64,000 nucleotides of DNA from Lachnospiraceae bacterium. Its GTDB lineage: Bacteria; Bacillota; Clostridia; Lachnospirales; Lachnospiraceae. Position 1 is the first letter of the stretch; each line of letters opens with the position of its first letter. The translations under genes were made by a program, and so were the position numbers. The stretch lies in assembly GCA_017396555.1 (NCBI GenBank), contig JAFQLS010000045.1, positions 1 through 64,000 on the forward strand, given 5' to 3'. The notes beneath the pieces are model-generated. The model was given only the letters and a program-made list of their open reading frames with translations. It had not been told where the DNA came from and made no database searches. Shown here in pieces: positions 8,213-25,584 of the stretch.

Positions 8213-8400
8213 AAAAAAGACTCCTTTCGTGATTTATTTTATAGTATTATTATAGGACTATTAAAAATGACTTCAGGGTTTGCAATAGCACCTATATACA
8301 GCCTCCTTAAATCGTTTCTTTCCATAACGCAAATACGTTAATTTCATTCCATAAAGGCTTACATACAAATTATATTCTAAACAAATATTTCTTCACCGTA

Positions 8401-8446
8401 AAAAGGTAGGGCTACCCGCTATTTAAAGCTAGTAGTCCTACCTTTT
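8401..8446. terminator. Strong bidirectional terminator
   Basis: AAAAGGTAGGGCTAC and GTAGTCCTACCTTTT form a 15-base-pair stem with one non-Watson-Crick position; T-rich sequence follows on both strands. It most likely ends the long minus-strand transcript that carries the sigma factor and the 734-residue protein. Confidence 0.8.
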
Positions 8447-8523
8447 ATCTTTTATAATATATACAATTCCACCCATAAAGTGTATTTCATTTTCTTTTTT
8501 GGCTGATATTTACCCCTTTTTTT

Positions 8524-8740: not shown

Positions 8741-10945
8741 TTATTCACTTTCTTTATCTGCTATTTCTTTGAATCTTTCTAAACGTCCTTTCTTGGCTTC
8801 ACCACTTGTGCTATCTCCATATCCCTCAATAGAACTTTTATATTCTTTCCAATTATTTTTCAGAACATTTATCAGCCTCTTAAACAAATTTGACTCCTTT
8901 ATTTCTTCTTGCATATATATATCATTATCGTATATATAAAAGATCAGCGTATATGCATTTGTCTTTTGTCTCCAAAATTTTAAACATTCTTCAATTTCTT
9001 TTTTCTTAAATATGTACTTCTCTTTATTTTCTTTCTTATATATGGCTATTTTTTCTTTTTCACTATATATATCACTATATATATCACACATCATACCACA
9101 TATAACTTTTAGTTCTTCTATTTTTTTAATCACCTCTTTGTCATATTCTGCAAATTTTTCTTTTGCTTTATCATCTAAATTATTACTAACTAATCCATTC
9201 AATTCAGCATTTTTTTCTTTAATTATCTTGTCGCCCAACATATATGCTAAAATAGTTTCGATATGATTAATTGGCCTTTCTTTATCTCTCTCTGTTTTAT
9301 TGAACAGAACCATTACATACTCTTTTATTTTGCTTTCTTTTTTTAGTAAATTACGAATCCTATCATCTATTTGAGGCTCCACCTTTTTATATACCTCATA
9401 TTTGTATATTGCCCAGCCTTTCATAAAATAATCAAACGGACTCATCTTTTTTTGTAAAAAACAAATGGTAATAAATAATTCATACGGATCATGTACATAC
9501 CATTCTGACATATTTAAGGATTTAAGCATTTTATTTACTTCATCCTCAAAAAAAACAAAATCAACTACTCCTCGTTCAGCTTTTCCAAATTTCGACATAT
9601 GTTCAAAATATCTATCATCATACCCATTGGCAAAAGTCAAAAACTTTAATAATATCAATTCTTTTCTGTTACTAGCATTAGGTTCTTTTACTTCTCTATA
9701 AAATACAGTTCCATCTTCCCCTTCTTTTTTACCTTTGAGAAGGCATATTGTTCTATACATATTAATACTGTTAGAATTAACAGATTTCAATTTAACTAAT
9801 ATCGCTTCACATTCTTCTGGCTTTCTATATCTATAGTTTACCTCACTAACAGTTTCTTTATTGTCAAGTTTTTTACTAATTTCTTCTCTTGCGTATTTTT
9901 CAAATTCCACAGCATTATCTTTTTTATACTCAAACTTTATAATATCATCCCCCTGATATTCTGTTCTTTGGATATATTTCGAATTTGTAATATCAATTCC
10001 CTTAAAAATCTCCTCCCACTGGTTATTATTCAAATTAACAACTTTTGTTTCATCATTGTACAATACTTTTAAATACCTATTAATATTTATTTCCAATAAA
10101 TCTACACTTAGATTTTTAATGGTTCCATCTTTTTGCTTTTTCACTTTATTTAAATCAAGACTTTTCCCATCTGACAAATAATTGAAATTTATACTACAAA
10201 GATTATTCATCAATTCAAGATATTTTTGTTGAATTAGAGAACTTTTATCTTCACACAATTTTTCTGCTTTTAAACCAGACAGATACTTTTTTAGCTCCTC
10301 CTCTTTCATATCCAATAACCTATCTAAATCGCTTTTCTGAGGACAAACCAATGTTTTACCAGACTCCAAGTCACATGAATCTTCATTATCTATACAAAAA
10401 TCCTCACTTTCATATAAATTAATTAGTGCATCTGCTTTTTCCTTTATTACTCTTCTTTTATTTCTGTAATTAAAATTACACCATCTATAAATAATTTCCT
10501 TATAACTTCTAGGATTAAAACCTCTTTGATGTAAAACTTTTTGCATTAGCATAGATAAGTATTCATCAGAAATATCAAGACCTATTGCATATAAACATAA
10601 GTCTTCTCTTTTTAAGCTATCTGTTGAATAAGTCAGCTTTTTTAATAATTCATTTTTTTCCTTAATTGAAAAACCTACCTGTTCAAATCCTTGTTTGATT
10701 GTATCATCAATTTGAGCACTATCTAATTCTTTGCCCAACATTTTTTTAATATATTGCTCGATATAATATCTCAAAGAAACCTTTTCATTTAGTATTTTTA
10801 CTAATACCTTTATTAATTCCTCTACATTCTCATTTTGCACGCTTTCATTTGTTTTCTCATTGGCTTTTTTATGCGCATCTATATCTTGCATTATTAAATT
10901 AGTTATATCTCTGGCTTCTTTTGCATCTTCAAAACTATTTATCAT
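8741..10945 (-). CDS. Large unknown protein, last gene of the kinase-NB-ARC cluster
   Basis: A 734-residue soluble, lysine- and glutamate-rich, mostly helical protein. I recognise no domain. It has no signal peptide, membrane segment, P-loop or obvious nuclease motif. A fairly conserved-looking core lies around residues 120-185 (YAIGLDISDEYLSMLM, then RGFNPRSYKEIIYRWCNFNY). The start at 10945 follows GGAGG by 7 bases and leaves a 17-base gap from the sigma factor stop; the frame extends six codons further up without a better site. Its tight linkage to the sigma factor and kinase-NB-ARC gene suggests it is the effector or structural product of that system, but this is inference. Confidence 0.55.
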   Translation of the reverse strand: MINSFEDAKEARDITNLIMQDIDAHKKANEKTNESVQNENVEELIKVLVKILNEKVSLRYYIEQYIKKMLGKELDSAQIDDTIKQGFEQVGFSIKEKNELLKKLTYSTDSLKREDLCLYAIGLDISDEYLSMLMQKVLHQRGFNPRSYKEIIYRWCNFNYRNKRRVIKEKADALINLYESEDFCIDNEDSCDLESGKTLVCPQKSDLDRLLDMKEEELKKYLSGLKAEKLCEDKSSLIQQKYLELMNNLCSINFNYLSDGKSLDLNKVKKQKDGTIKNLSVDLLEININRYLKVLYNDETKVVNLNNNQWEEIFKGIDITNSKYIQRTEYQGDDIIKFEYKKDNAVEFEKYAREEISKKLDNKETVSEVNYRYRKPEECEAILVKLKSVNSNSINMYRTICLLKGKKEGEDGTVFYREVKEPNASNRKELILLKFLTFANGYDDRYFEHMSKFGKAERGVVDFVFFEDEVNKMLKSLNMSEWYVHDPYELFITICFLQKKMSPFDYFMKGWAIYKYEVYKKVEPQIDDRIRNLLKKESKIKEYVMVLFNKTERDKERPINHIETILAYMLGDKIIKEKNAELNGLVSNNLDDKAKEKFAEYDKEVIKKIEELKVICGMMCDIYSDIYSEKEKIAIYKKENKEKYIFKKKEIEECLKFWRQKTNAYTLIFYIYDNDIYMQEEIKESNLFKRLINVLKNNWKEYKSSIEGYGDSTSGEAKKGRLERFKEIADKESE

Positions 10946-10962
10946 AATTAATCCTCCGTACA

Positions 10963-11961
10963 TTAAAATATTTCAAATTTACACAATTTATTGCCTTCTA
11001 ATTTTTTTATTACTCTTTCTTTTAACTCCCACACATACACTTCTGGAAGATTTAATTTCTTACTAACCTCTTCCTCAGTCATCTTCTTGTCATATAGTAA
11101 AAGCATTACTTCCTTTTCCCGCTCATTAAGATATTGGTCAAATATATCATGAATATCTTCATCATTTAATTGCGTGCTCATTTTATCTATTACAGTTTCT
11201 TCAACGGACATATTTTCATCTTTATCACCAATTAGCGTCCCCAGCGATACCGGCTCCTGTGAAATCTCCATCAAAAATTTCACTCTTTCTTCCGAGCAAT
11301 TCATTTCTTTTGCGATTTCCCCTACTGATGGTTCTCTTCCTAGTTTCTGTACAAGCAATTTTTTTATTTTATTCATTCTGTTAATTAATTCGAGATTATG
11401 TTTAGGAATTCGTATAGTTCTTGCCTGATCTGCCATAGCTCTTGTAATAGCAGCCCTTATCCACCATGTTGCATAAGTACTAAACTTAAATCCTTTCTTA
11501 TAATCAAACTTTTCTACAGCTTTAATAAGTCCAAGATTTCCTTCCTGAATCAAATCAAGGTACAACATACCCATTCCAACATACTTTTTCGCTATACTTA
11601 CAACCAGACGAAGATTGGCTTCTGCCAATCTTTTTCCAGCCTCCTCATCTCCCTCTGTCTTTTTTATAGAAAGTTCTACTACCTCCTCTGCCGATAAAAG
11701 CGGAACCTTTCCAATTTCTTTTAAATACATTCTGACAGAATCATCTAGTCCAACTCCTTCTAAGAAATCGTCAGCTTCAAATCTTATGTTTTCCTCTTCC
11801 ATTTCCGACTCATCGCTTAATAACTCTTCCTCTATTATTGCCTGTAGTTCTTTATCTGTAGGCTCTTTAATAACGAACCCCTCCGTGTCTTGATCTAATA
11901 TCAAATACCTATTTTTCCCTCTTTTTGTTGTTTTAGATTGTTTGTTTTCCTTTTTACTCAT
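10963..11961 (-). CDS. RpoD-like sigma-70 factor with altered region 4
   Basis: A 332-residue sigma-70 family protein. Region 1.2 ([17 protein letters not shown], residue 75 on), region 2 ([20 protein letters not shown], then [15 protein letters not shown]) and region 3 are close to housekeeping RpoD, so promoter melting and -10 recognition should be standard. Region 4.2 is different: the usual TRERIRQIEAKALRKL is replaced by [17 protein letters not shown], removing the residues that normally read the -35 box. There is no long region 1.1. The ATG overlaps the stop of the kinase-NB-ARC gene (ATGA), so the two are translationally coupled. It is probably a dedicated sigma factor for this cluster or for an accessory regulon. 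Confidence 0.9.
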
Positions 11962-14900
11962 GTACTTTTCCTCACTTTCTGTTTTAAAAATTGCAAAATA
12001 TCGTTGTCACCATTTGAACTCCCCCACCACTTCTCTGATACAACATGCAATATCATACTATATTCATTCTCTTTGTCTTTATCTCCTATTTTTTGATATA
12101 AATCAACAGCTCTAGAATACCAATCCATAATTGATTTCCCACATTCTGGATAAATATCTTTTGCAATTCCTATTCCTATTTTAAAATATTTTAATGCATT
12201 TTCATAATCTCCTACATATTTGTATTCTTCTACTAAAGATGCACAAATTCTTGCAATAAAACTCTTATCTATATCATCTTTAATTTTAATTGAATCCAAT
12301 AATTCAAATGCCTCTTGCATATACCTAATCCCGTTTTGTATGTCTTCATCTTTTTTATTATCTATATACAAATAACAATATGCAATTCCTAATTCATAAT
12401 ATATATTTCCTCTTTCTTTACTACTTACTTTTTTATCTTTTTGCATTAATGCTATAAGTTCTTCATACATCCCAATGCTTTTATATGTTTGCGAGCTCAT
12501 TATATATGCTATATTTAAACTTGTATAATAACGAATATAGTCTGTACTTTCCATACTAAACTTTTTTATTATATCAATAGCTCTTTTAATATTGCTTATT
12601 CCATTTTCATAATGACCACACATCACATTTATATCACCTAGAACTTTGTAATATTCAGCTACATCTAAGCTCTCCTTTATATTATTATCTTCATATATTT
12701 TTAGGGCTTTTTTAAGTAAACAAAGAGCCTTATCTATATTATCAAATGCACATATTTGGGCACCAAAAACTACATAATACTCAGCTAACTTCACAGGTTT
12801 TTTCACATATAATTTTTCAAATTTCTCAAGAGCAACCCACAAATATTTTTTACCAGTTTCTATATCGTTAATATTTTCAGGTACACATAGTAATATCTGT
12901 CCATATATATAAATAAAATTTGTATATTCTTCTGTTAACGATTCTGATAAACGCTTTATTACACATCTATATATTTCTTTTAATAACTTGTATTCTTTAC
13001 CATTTAAGTAAAAATGCACACATTTATATATATACTTTTTTGCATTATCGACTGTACTCTCCATCCCCTCCTGTCTATATAACACTTCCGACGATACCAT
13101 AGGCAAGCAATATACTCCCTTGCTCTTCGCTTTACTGTCAGCCAACAGATCCTTCCTATTCGACTCATATTCCAGCCATCCTTTATTGTGCAATTTCTGA
13201 AGAAGTATCGCTCCATTTCTACCCATACCACTCCATTCTGCAAATCTGGACATACTGATTCCTGTTTCTGATGGTACAAGTGTCATTATTCTTAATGCTT
13301 CTTTTTCATTATCCTCTAATATTTCTAATGTTCTCACTGCACCAAATATACATTCCAAATGATGATATGCATCTCCGTACTCCATAGCTTCATCATCTTT
13401 TCTATTCTGAACTTCTTCATCAATATGACGGACAATTCCTTGTTCTTCTAATTCCACTAACATATCTGATGGTTCCATTTCCATTCCATTCAAATATGAC
13501 ATCTGTTTTGCAAGCACCTTTATGCATAACGGATGATAACCTACTAGTTCTATAAGCTTTTTAATTGTTTCTTCTTCAGTACTAACAATTGCTTCTAATC
13601 TTTTAATCCATTCGCTGTTTCCTTCTTTAACTGCTGTCTCCTTATAGTAATATTCAAAGATACTCTTTGCAGCAGCATAATCCTTTGATAAATCTGATGA
13701 TTTAAGAGTTACGACTTCCACACCGCTTTTCGACCAGTCGTTCCAACTTGTTAAAATAATATCACAACCAAGCTCGTCCCACACACCAAATGTATCTTCC
13801 TTAGAGACATTATAATCGTGTATTATATATAATACCTTATTCTTCTTTTTACCATTATCGCTTTTATTAATTATATCCTTAAGTAATTTCTTCTTTTGAA
13901 CATAATATTGCTCTGTAAATTCCTTAGCTTCTATAATATTACCATTCTCGTCTTCAATAACTATATTCTCATTTACTATTTCTGTACTTATTATAGCTTG
14001 TCTTGCACTTGTTGCATGTATCTCCACAATACTTGTATATTCATTTTGGTGTTTCTCAGCATAAAGCCTTGCAAGACTAGATTTGCCTATTCCGCCTATA
14101 CCTGAAATACACACTATTCTACTCTTACCTTTTGCTTCTTGTTTTTTAAACTTTTCTTCAATCTCTCTTAACTTCCTATCTCGACCAAATATAATATCAT
14201 TATTTGGCGAGAAATTATCTTTTATAACTAGCTCGTCCTCATTTACATACTTTGTTATTTTTTCAATTGCTTCTATGACTTCATCCATATTATCATATCT
14301 TCGAGGTATACTATCTGTTATTGTATTTCTAAGGAAATCTTTAATTAGATCTATAGCATATCTTGAGCACTTATCATATTTCGTTCCAATTTTGTCTACA
14401 AGCTCTTTTTCATATTCAAAATCACGCAATAATTCTAAATTTATTTCTCCAGCAACATTAAAACTCTCTAAACTTTTGTCCATAAGAAATCTATATGTAA
14501 TTGCACCAATAGAAAATACATCCGCCCTTTCTCCATATTTCTTTAATATTGCTGTTTTCCCCTGTCTTACTTCTGGTGCTGTGTAACCATCCGAATATGA
14601 AAGCGTACAACCATCCACATCTGCTTTCTTTATAACTCCATCTATGTCCATAAGCATGACATACGCGTGTTCAGAACAATGCAGAAGATTTTGCGGTACT
14701 ATATCTAAATGTATATACCCCAGTGTATGCAATCTCTTAACAGCCTCTGCTGCTTTTGCTAACACCACAAAAAATTCATGGATTGATGGCTTAGATAGAA
14801 TAAATTCATCCATCCCCTCTGCTTTAATATAATCCATAATTATATATACCGTGCCATTTGCTTCAACAACCTCTCCCAACGACTTTACTATGAAATTATT

Positions 14901-15287
14901 AGTAGTCTCTTCACTACCAAAGTCTCTAAATAATTTTTCTGAATTTTTAAATCTTTCAAGTTTCTTTTTAAATTCTTCCGACTTATTATATGCCACTTCA
15001 GGAATTATAACCTCGCCTTTTGAATTTCTAACAATATTTATTGCCTCTTTGTCTTGTAAAACTGGAAAAAATTCTTTAAGAATTACTCTTCGACCTCCAT
15101 CTCCAGATTTATGTTTTTCTGGTGCATCCTTTTTGTTATAAATATAGGCCTGATATACGAGGCACGTTCCACCCCTGCCTACCCAACATTTCTCTCCTTC
15201 TTCATCATATTTCAGAACTGCTACTTTGTCCTCTGCAAGTTCTATTTTCTTTACTCCAACATCATACAAACTTTTTCGTCTATCCAT
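11958..15287 (-). CDS. Ser/Thr kinase - NB-ARC (STAND) ATPase - TPR protein
   Basis: An 1109-residue signal-transduction ATPase. The kinase domain (~1-345) has a glycine loop [10 protein letters not shown]71 in VILKEFFP, the catalytic loop HLDIVPQN (193-200), DID at 214-216 where DFG is expected, and TAPE. The NB-ARC domain follows a FGRDRKL linker at 367: Walker A GIGGIGKS (396-403), a Walker B-like strand VLYIIHDYN (485-493), ILTS near 511 and [10 protein letters not shown] near 590. From ~780 to the end are TPR-like helical repeats. The architecture is that of NLR-like sensors and conflict proteins. The catalytic-loop Lys is Val, so kinase activity may be reduced. It is followed by the overlapping sigma factor gene and lies downstream of a PP2C phosphatase gene. 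Confidence 0.9.
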
Positions 15288-15341
15288 TTATTTCACCTTC
15301 CCAATATATTTTAACCTTCTCTTTGTTCCGTTGTTCTTTTA

Positions 15342-16154
15342 CTACCCTTGTTGAGTAGTTGATATAGTTTTTAAGAATTCTTCATAATAATACGTACTAG
15401 GTGCTTGGTTTAGCTTGCATATCTCTAATTCATCCCACTCATTTCCAAGATAAAATGTCATATTATATAATTCATCAATGTAAACAGGCATCATATTCCA
15501 TAAATGAAATACCTCTGATATTTCACCAAACTCCATATTCAAATTTCTAATTGCCCTAGATGAACCCACATATCTACTAATATAATATCTTATATTCCGG
15601 ATATTCTCTTTGTTATTCATTAATCCTACAACCGCATCAGCAGATCTTCTTCCAAGCATTCCAGAAAGAATATAAAACACCGTATTGTCAGATATCTCTT
15701 TATTCTCATTTAATAATTGATAGAATTCATATCTTGTATCCGCCATAGAAGCTCTATATTCAGACCAATCCAAATAAAATTTATTACCAAGCTCATATTC
15801 CTCAAATCTCAAGTCTCTAACAGCATTTTGATAATCAAGGCAATGCCTTAACTCATGCACATAAGTTCGAACCATATCATTTAAATCATGGCACCTCTCA
15901 GTACTTATAATTACTTTGTATGTATCATTTACCGACTGTTTCTCTAACCATTTCCCTCTTGCAGAATTCACCATTTTTTTGAATCTAATATCTTGAAATT
16001 TATATGCATCTTCCGGTCTGCCTTTAAGCCAGGCAGCAGATAATGTATTTCCAATGTATACCTCTATATCCTCCCATCCGGCATAAGAGAAAGCCGTCTC
16101 CCATAACAGATACTTTCTAAAATGTTCAATTATTTCATTCTTAATTTTCTCCAT
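15342..16154 (-). CDS. Zinc metallopeptidase (HExxH)
   Basis: A 270-residue soluble protein. HELRH at 100-104 is a zincin motif, and DWSEYRAS (E132) about 28 residues later fits the third ligand, with a helix register typical of gluzincin-like peptidases. No signal peptide. Start chosen at 16154 because GAGG lies 7 bases before it; the frame is open a further 15 codons, but that part is encoded by the palindromic element at 16157-16296. The gene lies between an unknown protein and the kinase-NB-ARC gene on the same strand. It may be an effector or a maturation protease. Confidence 0.65.
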   Translation of the reverse strand: MEKIKNEIIEHFRKYLLWETAFSYAGWEDIEVYIGNTLSAAWLKGRPEDAYKFQDIRFKKMVNSARGKWLEKQSVNDTYKVIISTERCHDLNDMVRTYVHELRHCLDYQNAVRDLRFEEYELGNKFYLDWSEYRASMADTRYEFYQLLNENKEISDNTVFYILSGMLGRRSADAVVGLMNNKENIRNIRYYISRYVGSSRAIRNLNMEFGEISEVFHLWNMMPVYIDELYNMTFYLGNEWDELEICKLNQAPSTYYYEEFLKTISTTQQG

Positions 16155-16156
16155 AC

Positions 16157-16296
16157 CAATCCTCATTTCTGAGCGATTTATTGCGAAGAGGCGACGCAAA
16201 TTTTAGATTTGCGTCTGCCATAGAAGCTATTTGCTTTCGCTCAGAAACAAATAGCCGTGTGAAAAATCAGCGCATCGGCGTGATTTTTCACACTAT
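16157..16296. repeat. Composite palindromic element with three hairpins
   Basis: Three consecutive perfect inverted repeats: GACGCAAAT/ATTTGCGTC (16193-16215), GCTATTTG/CAAATAGC (16226-16255) and GTGTGAAAAATCA/TGATTTTTCACAC (16257-16293). In addition CGCTCAGAAA in the loop of the middle hairpin is complementary to TTTCTGAGCG at 16166-16175, next to the ribosome site of the metallopeptidase gene. It has the look of an interspersed repeat family or a structured RNA element and lies between the stop at 16305 and the start at 16154. Confidence 0.7.
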
Positions 16297-16304
16297 CATC
16301 CTCC

Positions 16305-16982
16305 TCATTTCCACACCATACTACTAATCAAATATTCTTTTTGTTCCTCACTAAAATCAATTTTCCCCGAGTCCCACATCTTAGCAAAGTCTTCTTTTGA
16401 TAAACCGTCTTCGCTTTTTCCTATGTACTTCTCAACAAGCTTCTGTACTACATTATCAAAAAGCTCATCATTATCCATCAACTCTTTAATACACTCTTTA
16501 ACTGCGCTTTCATCAAAACAACTTATTATATATAACTCACGCTCATATGAATCAATCCAAGCTGATAATTTGTCTACAACATCAACTATCCCTCTACATT
16601 CAGCTTGATTTACAATTTTGTGTCTAAATTTGAACTCCGTATCAGATATATCTTTCATACTAACTTCAAAATTAATAAGACTACCTATATATGTTGCTAT
16701 TTCGTTCAACTGTACGAGAAATATAGGATTCTCTTTACACATCGAACCCTTACATATTCTAAAGACCTGTTCTTTAAGCTCATGCAATTGAGAGACAAAC
16801 TCTTCTTTAGCTTTATTGAGTAGTTCCTCAAAGGATACATTGTCAATACTTACATCCCTATTCCACAAATATCTGGAAATGAGATAGGTGTAATTCTTAA
16901 CCAATATATCCCTCTCACATACTAATCCATAATTAGCTTCTACTACTGCATTATTTGCTCTTTCTTTTAAATACTTAACCAT
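16305..16982 (-). CDS. Unknown protein, paralogue of the one at 22190-22594
   Basis: A 225-residue soluble, mostly helical protein. Its C-terminal half aligns with the protein at 22190-22594 in the same cluster: NFEVSMKDISDTEFKFR here against NFEVAKKDISNTDFNIR there, then a shared VDKL...SYE stretch and a matching C-terminal segment (FSEEQKEY versus LTAEQKMY). The ATG at 16982 is 9 bases after AAAGGAG; an in-frame TTG two codons earlier is too close. It lies between the PP2C and metallopeptidase genes. The family is unknown to me; two copies in one cluster suggest an adaptor or chaperone for two partners. Confidence 0.6.
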   Translation of the reverse strand: MVKYLKERANNAVVEANYGLVCERDILVKNYTYLISRYLWNRDVSIDNVSFEELLNKAKEEFVSQLHELKEQVFRICKGSMCKENPIFLVQLNEIATYIGSLINFEVSMKDISDTEFKFRHKIVNQAECRGIVDVVDKLSAWIDSYERELYIISCFDESAVKECIKELMDNDELFDNVVQKLVEKYIGKSEDGLSKEDFAKMWDSGKIDFSEEQKEYLISSMVWK

Positions 16983-17074
16983 ACACAATCACTCCTTTTA
17001 TTATATACTTAATTCGACAATTTATAAATATAATTGTCACGAAATGCTCATTTTATGTCACAAACGGTAACCAA

Positions 17075-17749
17075 CTAAATCATTATTCCATTAAACCCTA
17101 TATCATCTGATATATTTTTTGATAACAAGTCATTCTCAAGGCCTTTCCAGTCCATACCTTTAACATAATCCAAATAACTTTGGTTATCCTCTATCTCATT
17201 TGATATACCATCTGTCATCAAGAATATAAAACCTCTTTCGTCATGTCTTTTGACACGAAGTCTTTTCATAAAATTTCCAGATACAGTTGTGTATGTATAC
17301 TGTCTCGTTATACCATTTTCCGGATTAGATAAAATTCTCACTTCATAATTATTATCTACTAATCCTATAACACCGTCACCTATATGGACAGTCCAATAGA
17401 AATCCTTGCCTTCCGGTAAAATTGCAAGCATAAGAGTGGATGCAAAGCTTTCCTCTTCACAGTCATATTTTTTTGATAACTCAAAAATTGTTTCGTTAAT
17501 AACGCATCCAATTTTAAACTTTAAATCAATCTCGTTAATTTCTGAAAAATCTTCAATTTCATCCAACATATCTGATATAGACTTTTGCACTTCATATGCG
17601 CCTATATCTGAGAATTTTTGTGTCGAGACTCCGTCACACAGACCTATTACTCGTACATATTTACTCTTTTTATAGAAATACACATCTTTACATTTATCTC
17701 TATTTGCTCCCTTATGAACAAAACAGATATTCTCTTTATTATCATACAT
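17075..17749 (-). CDS. PP2C-type protein phosphatase
   Basis: A 224-residue Ser/Thr phosphatase of the metal-dependent PPM family. Metal-binding motifs can be read in order: LCDGVSTQKFSDIGA near residue 37, ASTLMLAI near 103, HIGDGVIGL near 122, FLMTDGIS near 176 and a C-terminal DDIGFNGIM, close to the family's GDN-type motif. No membrane segment. It is 13 bases downstream of the SIMPL gene and upstream of the kinase-NB-ARC gene on the same strand, so the natural inference is that it opposes that kinase. A GGAGG-type site precedes the ATG. Confidence 0.85.
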   Translation of the reverse strand: MYDNKENICFVHKGANRDKCKDVYFYKKSKYVRVIGLCDGVSTQKFSDIGAYEVQKSISDMLDEIEDFSEINEIDLKFKIGCVINETIFELSKKYDCEEESFASTLMLAILPEGKDFYWTVHIGDGVIGLVDNNYEVRILSNPENGITRQYTYTTVSGNFMKRLRVKRHDERGFIFLMTDGISNEIEDNQSYLDYVKGMDWKGLENDLLSKNISDDIGFNGIMI

Positions 17750-17762
17750 AACTATCCCCTCC

Positions 17763-18416
17763 TTATATCAATTCCCACTCTATCTCTATTTCTTCCTGCG
17801 CCGATAACTCATCCGGAATAAAATCATAGCCAAACAAGTAACCTGCTGTAATCGGTATAAAGGTACTGTCAAAGTAATCATTTGATATATAACCTTCGTA
17901 ATCAAACTCTTTTATTTTATATTGCATATTGACCACATTACCAAGCTTTGCACCTGCTGCCTCAGCCATAACCTTTGCCTTTTCTTCAGACTCCTTAATT
18001 ATAGTTTGCAAAAGTTTCTTTCTTAATCCTTCTACATCCGATACAGCCTGTACAATCCATATCTCAGGTTCTATACCACAATCCATTACTTTATGTATTA
18101 CCTGCTCTAATCGCGGTATATCAAACGGCATACACACCTTAAATTCTTGTGTAACCTTAATTCCTTTACTATAGCTTTCATTATCAACTAAATTGAAATC
18201 TGATATTCTATCTGTGGTAAACATAACAGAAACCACATCCTCTTTGCCAAATCCCAATTCTTCAAGACAATCTATAAGCTTAGCTATCTTTTCACAATGA
18301 TATTCCATTGCCTTCCTGTATGATGTATCTGCTGATTTGAGCGTAATCTGCAGTTTCAAAAGATCTGTAGTAAAACACATAGACCCTTTACCCAATATTT
18401 TAATAGTCCTATTCAT
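17763..18416 (-). CDS. SIMPL (DUF541) family protein
   Basis: A 217-residue protein of the SIMPL/DUF541 family. Typical features are the RTIKILGKGS opening, the alternating strands to residue 105, and the helix AKVMAEAAGAKLGNVVNMQY that is characteristic of the family. Many members are secreted; this one has no signal peptide. SIMPL stands for signalling molecule that associates with pelle-like kinase, and the gene lies beside a PP2C and near a kinase, so a link to the phospho-switch is tempting but unproven. GGAAAGG precedes the ATG. Confidence 0.75.
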   Translation of the reverse strand: MNRTIKILGKGSMCFTTDLLKLQITLKSADTSYRKAMEYHCEKIAKLIDCLEELGFGKEDVVSVMFTTDRISDFNLVDNESYSKGIKVTQEFKVCMPFDIPRLEQVIHKVMDCGIEPEIWIVQAVSDVEGLRKKLLQTIIKESEEKAKVMAEAAGAKLGNVVNMQYKIKEFDYEGYISNDYFDSTFIPITAGYLFGYDFIPDELSAQEEIEIEWELI

Positions 18417-18433
18417 AATAACCTTTCCTTTCC

Positions 18434-18454
18434 GGGCAGGCGTTTCGCCTGCCC
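18434..18454. other. GC-rich intergenic hairpin
   Basis: GGGCAGGCG and CGCCTGCCC form a perfect 9-base-pair stem with a TTT loop between the subtilase stop and SIMPL start. There is no T-tract, so an mRNA-stability or ribosome-spacing element within the operon is more likely than termination. Confidence 0.55.
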
Positions 18455-18462
18455 ATTAAATA

Positions 18463-20661
18463 TTACCACTCACGCCAAGCTGTAGAGAAATCATCTCCTA
18501 TGGATATAAATTCTTTCTTACCATTTAGAATAACCTCGTAATAGCACAATAGCTGTACCTTATAACTTGTCTTTTCCTGTATCTTGGTAAATGTATAATT
18601 ATCCTTTGTAACCTTAACATCCTCTATCATATCCCAACCGCAGTCTTCTTTTCTATAACGGTATAATATGGCCATATAATATTCGAACGGAGCTTCTTTT
18701 TCCCATATATACTTTCCTCTAAATGTATTGAACTCTAAGTTCTTTTGAAATTCATTGAAATCAATCAACTTTATTTCATATACTTCTGAAAATTCTCCGT
18801 AGCATCCCTGCTCGTCATATGCTCTTATCTTAATTAATACATCCATTCCAAAGTATAAATCCTCATCATAATAATAATTCCATCTTATTGTATCCTTTTT
18901 GTACCAATTAAGATTTTCAAGATTATCTTCTCCATTATAATCTGAATACCATATTTCATATCCTGATGCTTTGTCAACTTCATCAAACGTTATTTTATTA
19001 GCAGGTACTTTTCCTTCTCCTGCATTATAAAGATGTAAATGTCCATCTACCTTATAATCGCTATATTCGGAATATCCTTCATACTCAATATTTACAACTT
19101 TATCCAATGTTGGAACCGTAGTTGTTGGCTCTTCAACATCCGGTCCTTCGGTTGTAGGCTTTTCTGTTGTCGGTTCTTCTGGTCTTGTAGTTATTGGTTC
19201 AGGTTTCTTCGTAGTAGGCTCCTCGGTAGTTGGTTCCTCTGGTCTTGTAGTTATTGGCTCAGGCTTTTCCGTTGTTGGCTCTTCTGTTGTTGGATTCTCT
19301 TTTCTTGGTGTTGTTGGCTCCGGCTTTTCTGTTGTCGGCTGCTCAGTCGTCGGTACTGGCTTCTTTGTTGTTGACTCCTCCGTTGTTGGCTCTTCCTCAT
19401 TAACTACAAATATAGGTAATCCGTAACCATAGTACTTATCCCAACCTTTACTACCCAAATCTTCGGAAATCGCTCTCATTTTTTTCATTGCTTCGCTTTT
19501 AGTATCTATAGACTCATCTTCAAGCATAGCAAGAGTTACAATACCTGAAATTATTGGACTTGAGAAGCTTGTCCCACTGGCAACACATTGTGTATAGTCA
19601 ACGCTATCACAGACTATGTTTTCACCAGGGGCGCAAATTTCTATTTCACCGAAATTCGAAAAATCACTTATCTCCTTAGCTTTATTTATAGATGACACTC
19701 CTATTACCTGTTCAAATGCAGCAGGATATCCTACAGCACCTCCTTCATTACCCGCAGAAGCGATTAATATACAACCTTTTTTAGTCGCATAGTTAACAGC
19801 AAATTCCTCAAGTTCACTAGCACCTTCTCCGCCCAGTGACATATTTATAATATCGCATCCTCTATCAGCTAGTCCACATATCGCTAGGTATAGCGAATAG
19901 CTACTACCTACTCCATCTTCAAGACATTTACCATTGATTATTCTTACATTATTAGTAGCTATATCTTCTCCTAATACATCTAACATACTAGAAATAACGC
20001 AGGTTGCATGATCATCACGCTTATCATATACGTTATTGTCATCATTAACAAAATCGTAAGAATTCTTGATATCTACATACTTGGCAATAACACTATTTTC
20101 TGAATATAATCCGGTATCAGCAATGCCTATTGTAATTGTTCTGTTAATTCCCTTCTTCGCTAGCTTTTTAGCTTGAGCTCTGGAGTTTACCATTGTTGGA
20201 GCATATGATAGTGTCCCTGAATAGTTTTGGGTACTAACATCTTCAAGCACTATGTCATCAAGTTCGATTTCCTCTGCGAATAGTGTATTAGAATCCTCTA
20301 ACAGCATATTATACTGTTCTTGAAACTTGTCCTGTTCTCGATAGCAAAGAATAATTGTGTCATAAGCATCAACTATTACTTTGCTAGGACTTAAGTATTT
20401 CGGAAAAACGCTACTATTATTCTTCATCCTATACGCAAGAGCATTAGTATACTTATCTAGTATCTCTGCTGCCGTTATCTGAGTTGTTTCATCAAGTACT
20501 TCCACCTCAACATCCTCACTAATTGATTCAACTACTTCATCAATCTTATAAGTACCATTTTCTGATTTGTCCTTGTATAAAATCTGACACCATATCAGCA
20601 TCCCTATTACACCCATTGTACTTAATGCAAGCCAGATTTTACCTAATAATTTTCTTGTCAT
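18463..20661 (-). CDS. Membrane-anchored subtilisin-like serine protease with Thr/Pro stalk
   Basis: A 732-residue S8 family protease. One N-terminal hydrophobic segment (~8-28) anchors it, without a lipobox. The catalytic triad is visible: ADTG (D182), DDHATCV (H218), SAGNEGG (oxyanion N305) and SGTSFSSP (S365). Residues ~422-518 form a Thr/Pro/Glu-rich linker, and the last ~200 residues look like one or two fibronectin-III-like beta domains. There is no C-terminal LPxTG motif. It lies next to the thioester adhesin gene (27-base gap). It probably cleaves surface or secreted partners, perhaps the neighbouring adhesin or peptidase. Confidence 0.88.
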   Translation of the reverse strand: MTRKLLGKIWLALSTMGVIGMLIWCQILYKDKSENGTYKIDEVVESISEDVEVEVLDETTQITAAEILDKYTNALAYRMKNNSSVFPKYLSPSKVIVDAYDTIILCYREQDKFQEQYNMLLEDSNTLFAEEIELDDIVLEDVSTQNYSGTLSYAPTMVNSRAQAKKLAKKGINRTITIGIADTGLYSENSVIAKYVDIKNSYDFVNDDNNVYDKRDDHATCVISSMLDVLGEDIATNNVRIINGKCLEDGVGSSYSLYLAICGLADRGCDIINMSLGGEGASELEEFAVNYATKKGCILIASAGNEGGAVGYPAAFEQVIGVSSINKAKEISDFSNFGEIEICAPGENIVCDSVDYTQCVASGTSFSSPIISGIVTLAMLEDESIDTKSEAMKKMRAISEDLGSKGWDKYYGYGLPIFVVNEEEPTTEESTTKKPVPTTEQPTTEKPEPTTPRKENPTTEEPTTEKPEPITTRPEEPTTEEPTTKKPEPITTRPEEPTTEKPTTEGPDVEEPTTTVPTLDKVVNIEYEGYSEYSDYKVDGHLHLYNAGEGKVPANKITFDEVDKASGYEIWYSDYNGEDNLENLNWYKKDTIRWNYYYDEDLYFGMDVLIKIRAYDEQGCYGEFSEVYEIKLIDFNEFQKNLEFNTFRGKYIWEKEAPFEYYMAILYRYRKEDCGWDMIEDVKVTKDNYTFTKIQEKTSYKVQLLCYYEVILNGKKEFISIGDDFSTAWREW
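19108..19398 (-). repeat. Thr/Pro-rich repeat coding region in the subtilase
   Basis: Encodes residues ~422-518, tandem units such as EEPTTEKPEPITTRP of about 20 residues (60 bases), with near-identical DNA copies at the 3' end. Such stretches act as extended wall-spanning stalks and can change length by recombination. Confidence 0.8.
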
Positions 20662-20688
20662 AATTATTCCTCCTAACCTTAAATATTA

Positions 20689-22149
20689 CTAGTTTCTAGT
20701 ATAATAATGCTTCATTGTATATGTCTCTGTGACATTGGAGCCTTCTATCTCAAACGGATGCTCCTCATCGTCTATATATACAGTTGAAGGACCTTTTACC
20801 TCTCTAAAATAGTAATTGCCTTCTCTTAAATATTTAGATAGTATTATTCCATTTTCATCTGATATTAGCTTTTGTATAACATTTTTATCTCTATCGAGAA
20901 TCTCATATATTATTCCTTTTATTGGAGTGATACCATCTTCCCCCACACTCTTAACCTTTAGCTTTCCTTCCTTTAGGGCATTTTTTATAACTAAAGATGC
21001 AGTATCACCATACTCTACCGTTATCTTTTCCAGTTCATCATACATAAGATATCCGCTAAGCTTATCTATTTGATCAATGTAATAATCACCTATTGGCAAA
21101 TTCTCGAATACTACTATTCCATCTGAATCTGTCTTTTCTACCTTCATTTCATTTTTATCAGCATCACTTAAGCGAATGTGAATGTTCTCCATAGGTTCTT
21201 CATAATTATCAATTATGGTTATTTTCATATCACCTTTTAAAAACGGAATCACTATCGGTTGAATACAAGTTAAGTCGTCCTCATAATTCTCCATTACACA
21301 AAAGCTTTGACTGCTTTTTGAATTTCCATATTCTAATACCCCATAATGAACCCCCTTTGCATTTACCATTAGTGAAATTCTTGTTTCCTCTTTACTTGCC
21401 GGTAATTTTATGTAGATATTTTCACCATTCTCAAACTTATTCTTGTTGTTCCCATCTTGGTCACAAAGAATAACATCATCAACTTTTTCTTCTAAGCCAA
21501 CATTGAGCTCTGTTATATCATAACCAACAGCATCTATCTTATATGGTCCTACTATAAGTTTATCGCTTTCTTTTATTACTATTTTAGATTCATCACTCAC
21601 TATGTCTAATTGAGGGTTTGCATAGTATGGATTCTCTTTAGCTTTATCGATTATTCCTCGTGCTGCTTTTTTTATCCTCTCCAAACTATCTTCATACCCT
21701 TCACATGGCTTTAGATTCTTCATATCGAATATGTACTTGTTTTCTTCTGCACATGCCTCTGCTATCCTCCAAACAGCAAACTGTGTTGCCATTCTCGCTT
21801 CCATTTCATCTTCAACTCCTAACTCTTCAAAGGAGACATTAGGGTAACCATAAAGCATTGTTGCCACTAAGACTCCTTCTGCATGCTCCTGATATTCAAG
21901 CCTGCTTCCGTCTCCTCCCGGCAAATCAGTACAATAATCCATACTATATGCTATCTCGCCATCTAAGCTGGCTTCGATAACTTTTAATTCTTTTTCATAA
22001 TACTCGTTAGTTGCTATCAAATCAGTTTCCTTGTAATTAAATAACTTTTTATCTACTGTATTCAATTTGCAATAAACGAAAACTCCACCAATACTTAGAA
22101 TAACAAGCATCAAAGCTATTATTACAACTACCTTTTTTCTTCCCATCAT
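20689..22149 (-). CDS. N-terminally anchored thioester adhesin with Cna-B domains
   Basis: A 486-residue surface protein. Residues ~6-27 are a membrane anchor. The next ~120 residues carry the signature of a thioester (Cys-Gln) domain: DYCTDLPGG (C73) and ATQFAVWRIA (Q123), the residues that form the internal thioester used for covalent attachment to host or other amines. Two Cna-B/SpaA-like beta domains follow (~300-390 and ~393-480). There is no C-terminal sorting signal or second membrane segment, so it is held by the N-terminus, which is the reverse of usual Gram-positive adhesins. GGAGG precedes tandem ATGs; the first is used. Confidence 0.8.
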   Translation of the reverse strand: MMGRKKVVVIIALMLVILSIGGVFVYCKLNTVDKKLFNYKETDLIATNEYYEKELKVIEASLDGEIAYSMDYCTDLPGGDGSRLEYQEHAEGVLVATMLYGYPNVSFEELGVEDEMEARMATQFAVWRIAEACAEENKYIFDMKNLKPCEGYEDSLERIKKAARGIIDKAKENPYYANPQLDIVSDESKIVIKESDKLIVGPYKIDAVGYDITELNVGLEEKVDDVILCDQDGNNKNKFENGENIYIKLPASKEETRISLMVNAKGVHYGVLEYGNSKSSQSFCVMENYEDDLTCIQPIVIPFLKGDMKITIIDNYEEPMENIHIRLSDADKNEMKVEKTDSDGIVVFENLPIGDYYIDQIDKLSGYLMYDELEKITVEYGDTASLVIKNALKEGKLKVKSVGEDGITPIKGIIYEILDRDKNVIQKLISDENGIILSKYLREGNYYFREVKGPSTVYIDDEEHPFEIEGSNVTETYTMKHYYTRN

Positions 22150-22189
22150 GGTATGCCTCCTTTATTCCTCTGAGTGACTACATAGTAAC

Positions 22190-22594
22190 TTAAAGCAACA
22201 CGCCTTCATCAATATACATTTTCTGTTCTGCTGTCAAATCATTTGGAACATATTGAGAAATGCATATTTCTAAGATATTATCTCTAATATCTAACTCTTC
22301 GAGATCCTTCTCTTTTAGATAGCTATTAACACACGACAACATCTTTTCTTTTCCTATTTTCTTAAGTATGGAATTTTCCATCTCATAAGACTTTATCAAC
22401 AGTGTTAACTTGTCCACGATGTCCTTAACATCTGATATGCAATCCTTAAAAGGTGTATATCTGATATTAAAGTCTGTATTCGATATATCCTTTTTCGCCA
22501 CTTCGAAGTTGCCATATCTTTGTATCAGCATATAAACATCTAATGATTGAATTAAAAGATTCTTACTTGCTCTGTTAATAATCATTTCATTCAT
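22190..22594 (-). CDS. Unknown protein, paralogue of the one at 16305-16982
   Basis: A 134-residue soluble protein corresponding to the C-terminal half of the 225-residue protein further down the cluster (shared NFEV..KDIS.T.F..R motif and VDKL...SYE stretch). AGGAGG lies just upstream of the ATG. It sits between the secreted cysteine peptidase and thioester adhesin genes, with gaps of 12 and 40 bases, so it is part of the operon. Its role is unknown; a cytoplasmic partner for the membrane proteins of the cluster is one possibility. Confidence 0.6.
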   Translation of the reverse strand: MNEMIINRASKNLLIQSLDVYMLIQRYGNFEVAKKDISNTDFNIRYTPFKDCISDVKDIVDKLTLLIKSYEMENSILKKIGKEKMLSCVNSYLKEKDLEELDIRDNILEICISQYVPNDLTAEQKMYIDEGVLL

Positions 22595-22606
22595 ATGTTC
22601 ATCCTC

Positions 22607-24046
22607 CTAATGTGCTTTGATTTCGTGTTCCTCTACTATAATAGAGAATTTTTTTAAAATTTCACCGTTATAGAAAGTTCCCTTACCCTTTACAATTATT
22701 TCTCCATTTCCCTTACGAGAGTTATTTCTGTAGGATACTTCAAAATGAACTCCTTCGCATAACCATTTTTCACCATCATATATCTCTATTTTAGGACATA
22801 AAGGAATTCCAACAAACTCCACCTTATCTTCATATTTGATTGAACATTTACCTATATCCTTCTTAGTTATCGTGTATGATATTTCCAACTCACCATCATA
22901 TATGTCACAAGTATCACTTGGTGTTATTCGTATTTTATATTTTCCGGGCTCTATAGGGTAAACAGGATAACTGACATCATATTCATTAGTCTTCAATTCT
23001 CTACCATACTGATCAACTATTTTTACTTTTGGCTCAATTACCTTTCCATTGTACTCATACTGAGATTTAAAATTTACAGTCTTGCACTTTGCCAAGTCTT
23101 CTCTAATAATTTTGTATTCCTTTAATACTTCACCTTCAAATTTCCCTTGACCACAAATCATTATGTATCCGCCGTCATTTCCTTTAGATGCAAAGTAATA
23201 ATCATAATCCGTATCGCAAGTAAGTGTTTTCCCCTCGTGCTTTACAGTAACCTTTGGTTCTGTCTCACCTTTATATCTATTGACATTTGATACCTCGATT
23301 GCACATTCAGATATGTCGTAGTTAATTGTTCTCTTCGAATAAGATAATATAAATCCAGTTTCACTATATTGCCCTGGAAAGTCATATGTGCTATTTAATC
23401 TGCCACTTATCAGATTGGCTAATTCAGATTTTGATATTTGCAAATTCCACCTAATTCCACATCGAAGGTCATTGTTACAATCACTATAATATACGGTATT
23501 TCCATTTATACCTGTTACAAAAATAGAATGATCATAGCTTGAGCCGGGAATTCTATATCTTACCACATCTCCCACCTGCAAGTCTGATATATTATGAGAT
23601 ATGCCATATTTATACGTTGACACATTAGCTCCATGATACAGATAACTTAGGAACAAGGCATAGCCGTGGCACTGTGCTCCGCCTTCAAACACATTGCAAC
23701 AACTGGTATCATAATATGTAGAATGGCACGGACTGGAAGTAACACTGTATGGATCAGTATTAGAAGGGCTTCCTTCATGATTCCAATATCTTCCTGCCGG
23801 AAACATACTCTTTAATTCACTTATACTCTTCCCTTGTACTTGAATAACATTGCTCGTAACAATATCTGCTTTTATTTGCTTACCTGATACATATAGCTGT
23901 TCTGAAATATTTACACCACCAGAACTTGCTATTAGATATTTCTCATTGTTACTTTCATTTCTATACAACATACTAACTACAACACCTATAACAACACATA
24001 TTATAATTGTTAAGCATGTTATTACTTTTAATATACGTTTTTTCAT
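22607..24046 (-). CDS. Secreted or membrane-anchored CHAP/NlpC-like cysteine peptidase with repeat domains
   Basis: A 479-residue protein. The start at 24046 follows AAAGGAGG by 6 bases; 22 further codons upstream are open but not needed. Residues ~5-27 are a hydrophobic anchor. A papain-fold amidase-like domain follows: GGAQCHGYA (C126), SYDHSIFVTG (H173) and YSDCNND (near 190) give a Cys-His-Asp/Asn triad. Two or three beta repeats with GxG and YDGE segments fill residues ~260-470. It could cut peptidoglycan cross-links or proteins at the surface. It is the first large gene after the 21-residue peptide. Confidence 0.65.
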   Translation of the reverse strand: MKKRILKVITCLTIIICVVIGVVVSMLYRNESNNEKYLIASSGGVNISEQLYVSGKQIKADIVTSNVIQVQGKSISELKSMFPAGRYWNHEGSPSNTDPYSVTSSPCHSTYYDTSCCNVFEGGAQCHGYALFLSYLYHGANVSTYKYGISHNISDLQVGDVVRYRIPGSSYDHSIFVTGINGNTVYYSDCNNDLRCGIRWNLQISKSELANLISGRLNSTYDFPGQYSETGFILSYSKRTINYDISECAIEVSNVNRYKGETEPKVTVKHEGKTLTCDTDYDYYFASKGNDGGYIMICGQGKFEGEVLKEYKIIREDLAKCKTVNFKSQYEYNGKVIEPKVKIVDQYGRELKTNEYDVSYPVYPIEPGKYKIRITPSDTCDIYDGELEISYTITKKDIGKCSIKYEDKVEFVGIPLCPKIEIYDGEKWLCEGVHFEVSYRNNSRKGNGEIIVKGKGTFYNGEILKKFSIIVEEHEIKAH

Positions 24047-24144
24047 ACGCAACCTCCTTTTGAGTAATAAAGTTTTTTGAATTGGTAAATAACTTATCAC
24101 CCCCTTTCTCATTAATTTGAATTCTTACCAGCTTCTCATTATTA

Positions 24145-24210
24145 CTAGCCGAATATAAAAGACCAAATGCCAGAGAACCACTTCGTTGCGTCCGTAAACC
24201 ATGACCACAT
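24145..24210 (-). CDS. Predicted 21-residue Trp-rich amphipathic peptide
   Basis: A complete small reading frame (66 bases with stop) opening MWSWFTDATKWF and ending in IFG. It contains four Trp and four Phe and only one Lys and one Asp. AAGGAGGTGA lies about 6 bases before the ATG, one of the best ribosome sites in the window. It lies 55 bases downstream of the coiled-coil gene and about 100 bases upstream of the cysteine peptidase gene, in the same direction. The composition is that of a membrane-active or membrane-inserted microprotein; a leader-peptide role is less likely. Function unknown. Confidence 0.55.
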   Translation of the reverse strand: MWSWFTDATKWFSGIWSFIFG

Positions 24211-24264
24211 AAAAATCACCTCCTTATATACATAAATATAGTCCTTTCATTTTTTTCTTCGCCC

Positions 24265-24867
24265 TTATCTGTTCTTAATTAGCCTATCATTTTGCTCTAT
24301 CTGACTTTTTATAGCCTTAAGTCTCTCAAACAAATTATTTCTCTCTTCCTTCAAAACAAAAATATAAGCTAAATATTGATTTCTCTTCTCATAACATTCA
24401 TTTACCTTATTCTGTCGCTCCTTATTAGCATTAATCATTCTACTTATGTAATCCGCCTGTCGCTTTTTATCGCGTTTCAAAGACTCAATCCTATCAACTG
24501 TATTTCTTTTTCTCGCCTTTACATTTTCTATTTGACTCTTAATTCTGCTAACTCGGTCATAATTCTTACAATCATAGGCAGAAGATTTTTCTCTATACAA
24601 ACCTTCTAATTTACCATTTAACTCACTTAAATAGTTATATTCCTCGGAAATTTTATTTTTAATATTGTTCAAACTCTGTGTTTCTGACCTAATCCATGCT
24701 TTATCCTGAGCAATATCCTTTGAATAATATTTAATTTCACTCTCCAAACCGACTGCTAATATATATACCGGCTCCATTTTTTGCTTTATATCATTTATCT
24801 GCTGATATATTTTCTGTTTTTCCTCTCTTAGTATTTTGTTTTGGCTAATTAATTCATGTCTTGTCAT
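24265..24867 (-). CDS. Coiled-coil protein
   Basis: A 200-residue protein that is almost entirely heptad-patterned, rich in Lys, Glu, Asn and Arg, without membrane segment or signal peptide. It is the first gene of the minus-strand cluster, with AAGGAGG before the ATG. Possible roles are a structural rod, an adaptor or a secreted helical hairpin protein; I see no WXG motif that would make it a type VII secretion substrate. It is divergent from the membrane-protein gene at 25136. Confidence 0.6.
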   Translation of the reverse strand: MTRHELISQNKILREEKQKIYQQINDIKQKMEPVYILAVGLESEIKYYSKDIAQDKAWIRSETQSLNNIKNKISEEYNYLSELNGKLEGLYREKSSAYDCKNYDRVSRIKSQIENVKARKRNTVDRIESLKRDKKRQADYISRMINANKERQNKVNECYEKRNQYLAYIFVLKEERNNLFERLKAIKSQIEQNDRLIKNR

Positions 24868-25570: not shown

Positions 25571-25584
25571 AAGGAGGATTATCT

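Follow-up and report, generated by a model that had tools for sequence, protein, structure and literature searches.

What a run of surface-protein, peptidase and signalling genes carrying its own sigma factor does, and which of its members belong together, is the question raised by positions 8741..24867 of a 64,000-nucleotide stretch of DNA from a Lachnospiraceae bacterium (GenBank assembly GCA_017396555.1, contig JAFQLS010000045.1, positions 1 to 64,000; the whole stretch is denoted here the window). A preliminary description, made from the sequence alone, proposed that a surface cue is passed through proteases and a kinase/phosphatase switch to a nucleotide-binding ATPase and on to the sigma factor. 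The analysis presented here confirms the observation behind this proposal and partly supports its interpretation. The conserved core of the cluster, common to many related bacteria, consists of a Ser/Thr kinase gene and the last gene of the cluster, which had been listed as an unknown and is the most informative gene of the set.

The last gene (8741..10963, minus strand) encodes a protein of 740 amino acids (aa) from the first ATG, or 734 aa from an alternative ATG at 10945, and matches no Pfam family. Through profile searches and relatives that adjoin kinase genes, it was assigned to an unnamed family that we denote YWC, from the conserved residues around IYxWC. With the 740-aa protein as query, weak relatives were found in five other genomes, one of which (G310, locus L026) gave no match to the YWC profile. 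This profile was built from an alignment of seven YWC proteins (A1), one row of which is the window protein, so that the latter matches by construction; it matched 44 of the 397 genomes of the bacterial family, the window's own included, or about one in nine. Neighbourhoods were read in 30 of these 44 genomes, again counting the window's own; G028, G128, G143, G198, G201, G241, G247, G285, G287, G289, G290, G402, G430 and G431 were left out, as were second YWC places in some genomes. The resulting set of 41 loci includes 29 that were found through YWC itself (L023, L024, L025, L027 and L146-L170) and 12 that were not: L021, L022, L028, L067-L073 and L103 (via kinase), and the window.

Across these 41 loci, a kinase gene is the immediate neighbour of the YWC gene in 30 and no more than four genes away in 37; in 20 loci this kinase is of the STAND type. 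When only the 29 loci collected through YWC itself are considered, 25 have a kinase within four genes. The four loci without a kinase within four genes of at least 100 aa are L146, L151, L158 and L160; the YWC gene of L151 starts near a contig end, and in L158 the kinase gene is farther away. Without iteration, the seven-row profile finds 39 of the 41 YWC proteins, those of L073 and L103 being reached after iteration alone. As a specificity control, the profile gave no match among 1034 open reading frames (ORFs) of 82 loci, at least 69 of which had been fetched for a kinase match, mostly from other phyla. A scan of genome contigs with an alignment of the kinase returned at least 79 loci, among them ten possible module loci (L067-L073, L075, L103 and L145), with the remaining 69 used among the controls. 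The kinase-STAND relatives in L067-L073 belong to Clostridia, and there each YWC gene adjoins the kinase gene, except in L073, where it is one gene away. In L024, which comes from another genus of this family (G212), PP2C, YWC and kinase-STAND genes stand in a row, and the kinase-STAND protein is 36% identical to that of the window over 819 aligned positions. PP2C phosphatase genes were identified by Pfam within a few genes of YWC in L023, L147, L149, L150, L103 and L162, in addition to the window, and in L024 by similarity to the window PP2C; these counts are lower bounds, because the PP2C profile missed several genes that were later found by Pfam. In L149 (10433-16889) and L150 (9474-15846), PP2C, kinase, membrane protein and YWC genes are co-directional, the membrane protein of L149 being an FHA-ABC transporter according to Pfam. 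A genome-contig scan with the window YWC alone and a plasmid tblastn search with the L023 YWC gave no match, and literature searches found no description of the YWC-kinase pair.

In the window, the kinase gene (11958..15287, minus strand) encodes a 1109-aa protein that is assigned, on the basis of Pfam, the relatives in L024 and L067-L073 and a motif table, to Ser/Thr kinase-STAND (AAA_16/NB-ARC-like)-TPR proteins. It had been labelled kinase-NB-ARC-TPR. The kinase part of this label stands, with a Pkinase-family domain at 55.8 bits (cut-off 31.7), whereas the other Pfam matches fall below their cut-offs: AAA_16 at 25.5 bits (cut-off 32.6, E 2e-5), nSTAND3 at 20 bits (27.2), NB-ARC at 14.2 bits (23.5, E 0.026) and TPR_12 at E 2e-5. 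At curated cut-offs the P-loop is thus assigned to no STAND clade, and an NB-ARC search of the genome at E 0.001 gave a match in contig C41 and none in the kinase gene. The Walker A motif GIGGIGKS is intact, and a Walker-B-like VLYIIHDYN can be recognized by eye; the label STAND is drawn from the Walker A region together with relatives, a distant one of which carries an NB-ARC annotation. More exactly, the protein appears to contain a STAND-type P-loop of uncertain clade rather than NB-ARC proper. In the catalytic loop (HLDIVPQN, with DID in the place of DFG), the Asp, the Asn and the metal-binding Asp are kept, and the Lys of DxKxxN is replaced with Val. STAND-linked kinases of the set mostly carry H/Y-L-D-I-K-P-x-N and DFD (HYDIKPDN and DMD in L024), several of the non-STAND kinases have Ser at the place of the Lys, and the Arg that follows IILTS in the STAND part of the L024 protein is Trp in the window. 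Against 98 relatives, the window protein gave 53 matches, with the window's own protein alone matching near full length; a scan of viral contigs with the kinase alone found no relatives.

What YWC may be is suggested by its N-terminal part. As a known Pfam or PADLOC family it was rejected, since 31 members gave single scattered matches alone, namely one HTH_48 match in Pfam (E 0.008) and one member with a match to one PADLOC model below 1e-3; comparison with solved structures gave nothing convincing. In a class-wide search with a 31-row profile (A4), 40 of 291 genomes matched, many of them weakly and by way of proteins about 140-190 or 330-380 aa in length, whose alignment was limited to the N-terminal part of the model. 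The small relatives, which align to YWC profile positions of about 60-165, are represented by seven loci with helix-turn-helix (HTH)-type proteins; five of these were scanned with Pfam (L194-L196, L198 and L199, leaving out L193 and L197), and HTH_3 was over the cut-off in two and below it in two more. Six of the seven loci have an adjoining Ser/Thr kinase gene beside the small XRE-type HTH-like protein (L193, L194 and L196-L199). Profile-profile comparison of YWC with HTH_3-type proteins gave a 96.4% probability over 100 columns, placing a diverged XRE-type HTH region at about residues 85-182 of the window YWC; in this protein itself, the N-terminal homology is detected and neither HTH_3 nor a related Pfam HTH family exceeds its cut-off. 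Thus, YWC probably carries a diverged Cro/CI-type (XRE) HTH domain in its N-terminal part, and, because this part resembles small XRE-type HTH proteins that also adjoin kinases, the protein has the look of a derived regulator that partners the kinase. The wider theme, as far as sequence comparison goes, is probably a Ser/Thr kinase beside an XRE-like partner.

Between the two core genes of the window lies the gene of the RpoD-derived sigma factor (10963..11961, minus strand; 332 aa), which overlaps both neighbours, the kinase gene by 4 bp and the YWC gene by 1 bp. Sigma-70 regions 1.2, 2, 3 and 4 all exceed their Pfam cut-offs, the region content of group 1/2, and region 1.1 gave no Pfam match. 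Over 268 aa the protein shares 60% identity with the RpoD of this genome, the gene of which follows dnaG on contig C51 (Pfam), and over 319 aa 49% identity with another RpoD-like paralogue, encoded on C48 (L180:5190-6311, G000:C48), which is itself 60% identical to the genome's RpoD. Region 2 is close to that of RpoD, but the Gln of WWIRQAITR in region 2.4, which we take to face the -10 element, is replaced with Ala. Region 4 is shortened, and the RpoD helix TRERIRQIE, which presumably reads the -35 element, has become PEVYVWELK and no longer conforms to the standard helix. Because region 2 is nearly kept and the -35 helix is rewritten, the cluster sigma factor should bind core polymerase but read another -35 element. 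A candidate for a promoter specific to this sigma factor, GGGGCGAGCC(N10-16)TANNNT before the cluster, was rejected as too weak, with one other site in the genome. Sigma factor genes of the extracytoplasmic function (ECF) type were found with ECF-type queries and Pfam in two other loci: two genes from YWC and on the opposite strand in L148, and about 8 kb from YWC in L156. The L148 segment (9586-12477) contains, beside YWC and on the opposite strand, the ECF sigma gene and a gene for a 338-aa protein without assignment.

The thirteen co-directional genes with short gaps or overlaps that had been reported are indeed present. On the minus strand across 8741..24867, twelve larger genes have open frames exactly where they had been placed, and the thirteenth is a 21-codon ORF (24145..24210, minus strand) that is preceded by AAGGAGGTGA, has a strong Shine-Dalgarno sequence and encodes the Trp/Phe-rich peptide MWSWFTDATKWFSGIWSFIFG. 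The gaps among the twelve are 152, 12, 40, 27, 46, 13, 92, 150, 54, -4 and -1 bp, assuming the likelier ATG starts at 16982 and 16154 and with the 21-codon ORF inside the 152-bp gap; eight of the 11 are below 60 bp. Co-direction was rejected as evidence for a unit, because 120 of the 145 neighbouring gene pairs elsewhere in the same genome are co-directional, with runs of up to 19, so that it carries little weight. Stronger evidence is provided by the overlaps among the kinase, sigma and YWC genes and by a terminator-like hairpin downstream of the YWC gene (within 8385..8450, minus strand; -24 kcal/mol, z -4.5, none of 200 shuffles equally stable), the 3' arm of which enters a U stretch and which is the probable 3' end of the unit. 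The coding strand within the cluster gave no terminator-like site in a pattern scan, a weak negative because the same scan missed the hairpin after YWC; promoter-like sites detected by pattern were overall no more frequent than in shuffled sequences.

Two sites inside the cluster stand out. Before the gene of a 227-aa protein, the perfect palindrome GACAATT-N9-AATTGTC (17016..17038) overlaps a promoter-like site on the minus strand (17028-17000). Such a palindrome is expected 0.01 times in the window, and the pattern occurs at two sites in the genome, the other being C3:70641, compared to one site for the reversed control pattern; it is a candidate internal operator/promoter. Between the genes of the 227-aa protein and of the putative zinc peptidase lies a 132-nt hairpin repeat (16161..16292, minus strand; -54.1 kcal/mol, none of 200 shuffles equally stable). 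Elsewhere in the genome, the sequence at G000:C42:14878-15009 is 99% identical to it, and two further stretches of about 46 nt are copies in part. This hairpin-forming sequence is a small mobile or structural repeat. The GC content of the cluster, 0.30-0.35, does not differ clearly from that of the rest of the window. A Lachnospiraceae host, as assumed in the preliminary description, agrees with a match on a Butyrivibrio plasmid.

The remaining genes of the cluster, all on the minus strand, encode surface proteins and peptidases among others. Pfam matches over cut-off bear out the labels that the preliminary description had given to four of them, as they do for the Pkinase domain and the RpoD-like sigma factor. 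These four are a PP2C-type Ser/Thr phosphatase with a homologue in L024 (17075..17749, 224 aa; PP2C_2, 88.7 bits); a SIMPL (DUF541) protein in which no signal peptide is evident by eye (17763..18416, 217 aa; PF04402, 57.1 bits); an N-anchored subtilase with a Thr/Pro/Glu-rich linker (18463..20661, 732 aa; Peptidase_S8, 98.6 bits; anchor and active-site motifs by eye), which has partial matches alone elsewhere in its own genome; and an N-anchored thioester (TED/TQXA) and SpaA-fold surface protein (20689..22149, 486 aa; TED and SpaA over cut-off, TQXA below its own), with no LPXTG seen by eye at the C-terminus. The cysteine and zinc peptidases of the preliminary description remain putative: their motifs are visible by eye, but neither has a Pfam match over cut-off. 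The zinc peptidase (15342..16199; HELRH) more likely starts at ATG 16154 (270 aa), because TTG 16199 falls inside the 132-nt repeat; for the cysteine peptidase, which is secreted or anchored (22607..24112; QCHGYAL...DHS), a later ATG behind GGAGG is the likelier start. Two proteins without assignment, of 227 aa (16305..16988; 225 aa from the ATG at 16982) and 134 aa (22190..22594), are paralogues, as had been stated (30 of 106 positions identical, E 2e-10). The first gene of the run encodes a coiled-coil-like protein (24265..24867, 200 aa) with weak SMC-like matches alone, below cut-offs.

These genes differ from the core in their distribution. Neither the zinc peptidase nor the 227/134 pair has a relative in the other 396 genomes of the family, and the subtilase, thioester, SIMPL, cysteine-peptidase, 227/134 and zinc proteins had no phmmer match at E 0.001 in the other loci examined. 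Viral-contig scans with A3, the zinc peptidase and the 227-aa protein found no relatives, and a narrow test (GGAGG before ATG, at least three W) found no peptides like the Trp/Phe-rich one in the loci. The whole set therefore does not stand as a conserved system. Synteny of the kinase, sigma and paralogue genes in other Lachnospiraceae had been proposed as a check; the kinase does recur, together with YWC, whereas an RpoD-like sigma gene was found in one of the 41 loci and the 227/134 pair in one of the 397 genomes, those of the window. The segment by the contig start (478-8212) may be a fragment of a mobile island: it contains a type IV secretion system (T4SS) coupling protein gene (4551-6056), an exonuclease gene and genes that are weakly SprT-like and PIN-like; directly upstream of the cluster (25136-26223) is a divergent pair encoding a membrane-type protein and an ImmA/IrrE-like M78 peptidase.

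Because the kinase-STAND/PP2C/YWC association recurs and both partners overlap the sigma gene, we favour, with confidence that is about evenly balanced, a phosphorylation switch that controls transcription, with the RpoD-derived sigma factor as a local addition. The conserved core pairs YWC with a Ser/Thr kinase, which in many cases is fused to a STAND switch and repeats. The repeats and the STAND part would sense something and then open, upon which the kinase would phosphorylate or release YWC; as a repressor or an anti-sigma-like holder, YWC would then let the sigma factor act, and the PP2C often encoded nearby could reverse the state. The sigma factor, which retains its core-polymerase-binding parts and the larger part of the -10 reader but has a new -35 reader, would direct polymerase to private promoters. 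The upstream surface proteins and peptidases would probably be co-expressed targets or the input arm. We infer these biochemical steps, which way the signal runs and what the surface half does, as we do a surface cue as the input and the order, advanced in the preliminary description, that leads from the surface through a protease to the kinase. That all of this amounts to an undescribed signalling system of Clostridia, in which a kinase-STAND-TPR protein, an XRE-derived YWC and PP2C command a sigma-driven regulon of surface adhesin, peptidases and peptide, is a more tentative proposition, which we regard as doubtful.

Several observations weigh against the switch as drawn. An RpoD-like sigma factor is not a general part of the module, because it is present in one of the 41 YWC loci, that of the window, where it lies between the kinase and YWC genes; phmmer found none in the other 40 even at E 1, in a search that misses ECF sigma factors, and the count is to be read as one for which not every ORF of every locus was scanned for all sigma types. 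Of the proposed path from a kinase/PP2C switch to a sigma factor, the recurrent association and the overlaps hold, but a sigma gene of this type between the two partners was seen in the window alone. Kinases of this kind also occur with no YWC match in the stretch or adjacent to them, in L075 and L145, which were excluded from the 41 loci, and in the second kinase-STAND of L069. As for the regulator, no XRE HTH family of Pfam is reached by any of the 31 YWC members, and it was the YWC profile that collected the small HTH proteins, which leaves the HTH_3 Pfam label as the sole independent part of the HTH homology. The regions before YWC genes show no enrichment in palindromes (mean arm 5.9, n=16, vs 6.8 in 172 controls), which were rejected as a feature of the family. 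The kinase/STAND activity could be weakened, because the catalytic-loop Lys is absent and Trp replaces Arg after IILTS. Finally, the promoter-like palindrome and the hairpin repeat, both located between the PP2C and zinc-peptidase genes, may divide the cluster.

Such a division would suit a mosaic island, in which PP2C, kinase, sigma factor and YWC alone are functionally linked and the coiled-coil protein, peptide, peptidase, adhesin and SIMPL protein are unrelated neighbours in a variable region. We regard this as quite possible, though short of an even chance; it can be combined with the favoured switch, denying the surface half alone. The two internal sites fit it, as do the restriction of the 227/134 and zinc-peptidase genes to one of 397 genomes each, the lack of matches to the surface-half proteins in the other loci and the high frequency of co-directional pairs in the genome. 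It agrees less well with the gaps of 12-46 bp from the 501-aa (cysteine-peptidase) gene to PP2C and with the distribution of the 227/134 paralogues over both halves. Other loci provide hints, each from a single locus, of a link between core and surface: in L024, a dockerin-bearing secreted protein is encoded 49 bp before PP2C-YWC-kinase; in L073 (367-7442), a secreted-type peptidoglycan-binding Amidase_6 protein, weakly similar to the window cysteine peptidase (25 of 74 positions identical, E 1e-5 for that single comparison), sits between YWC and kinase-STAND; and in L164 an LRR protein is encoded beside YWC. Judged by co-occurrence elsewhere, the lack of which the preliminary description had named as a refutation, the surface half is not supported as a member of the unit, apart from these hints.

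An equal number of hints point to conflict biology: in L027 a TIR-LRR protein directly precedes YWC, in L025 a TIR-STAND-CHAP protein lies near the core, about 4.6 kb away, and plasmid pCY186 carries a caspase gene. They bear on another reading, that of an anti-phage or conflict system in which the kinase-STAND-TPR protein senses and triggers, YWC is a partner or repressor, PP2C is the brake, and the peptidases and Trp-rich peptide are the effectors. STAND and kinase-phosphatase modules belong to described conflict systems, as far as the cited passages go (PMC7159879, PMC11341870). Relatives lie on plasmids pCY186 (Butyrivibrio proteoclasticus B316) and pRUMAL01 (Ruminococcus albus 7), in stretches that also carry caspase-family, BrxL, toxin-antitoxin and integrase genes, and the flanks of the window cluster contain the T4SS coupling protein and ImmA/IrrE-like genes. 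PADLOC rows were obtained for the kinase (mad6, PD-T4-6), the subtilase (subtilase, IetS) and the sigma factor (MzaA), but the kinase matches are confined to the kinase region, except for VakA in the P-loop, and the YWC family is nearly without PADLOC matches. L024 adjoins a glycogen-phosphorylase-type gene, and, as effectors, a sigma factor and a thioester adhesin would be out of the ordinary; we consider a defence role rather unlikely. The sigma gene taken by itself might be a decaying or accidental duplicate of rpoD without special function, as its shortened region 4, its changed recognition helix and the second RpoD-like paralogue already in the genome (L180) would allow. Its 332-codon frame is open, however, region 2 is nearly intact and the overlaps with both neighbours are retained; we consider this reading improbable.

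Bacterial NLR-like ATPases are mostly discussed as cell-death triggers. If the more tentative proposition of an undescribed Clostridia system is right, a bacterial NLR-like receptor would end in a private transcription programme instead of cell death. An ATPase of this kind that is wired to its own sigma factor would be the bacterial counterpart of signalling from receptor to gene expression. Through the YWC-kinase pair, such a phospho-signalling module becomes searchable, and the sigma factor makes its output testable by ordinary promoter mapping.

Among known systems, several share a component with this cluster. The prophage kinase-kinase-phosphatase (KKP) module likewise encodes Ser/Thr kinase and phosphatase together, with their balance controlling the output; it has two kinases with one phosphatase and a prophage setting, whereas the cluster has one kinase gene, and the KKP abstract names no STAND, YWC or sigma part (PMC11341870). 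CapK-CapS, in the passages cited, also joins a kinase to a DNA-binding partner that controls the adjacent operon, but consists of a GHKL kinase and a STAS-wHTH repressor, in contrast to the Pkinase-family kinase and XRE-like partner found here, which places the cluster outside that group (PMC13373217). The NTP-dependent conflict systems of multicellular bacteria include STAND NTPases and kinases, with a kinase accompanied by PP2C as one theme, but are centred on vWA-MoxR or GTPase proteins; the term sigma factor is absent from the searched main text, and the passages cited here present no kinase-STAND protein with such a partner (PMC7159879). MzaA of the MZA defence system shows sigma-70 homology in a defence gene (NCBIfam and PADLOC models); the cluster sigma factor was rejected as an MzaA, at 216.6 bits against a cut-off of 800, a score that reflects general sigma similarity alone.

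The closest working analogy is AfsK-AfsR-AfsS of Streptomyces, in which the Ser/Thr kinase AfsK acts on AfsR and in which, to our knowledge, YWC has no counterpart. In the window, the kinase and STAND-TPR parts are joined in one protein and the sigma factor is of the RpoD type; membership with AfsR is excluded because the SARP DNA-binding domain is missing, no Pfam match to it being found in the kinase-STAND protein. The likeness lies in the combination of a Ser/Thr kinase, a NOD (STAND)-TPR regulator and a sigma-like protein later in the pathway, the passages cited for Streptomyces describing a NOD-TPR regulator that is linked with a small sigma-like protein (PMC10936776, PMC2267785).

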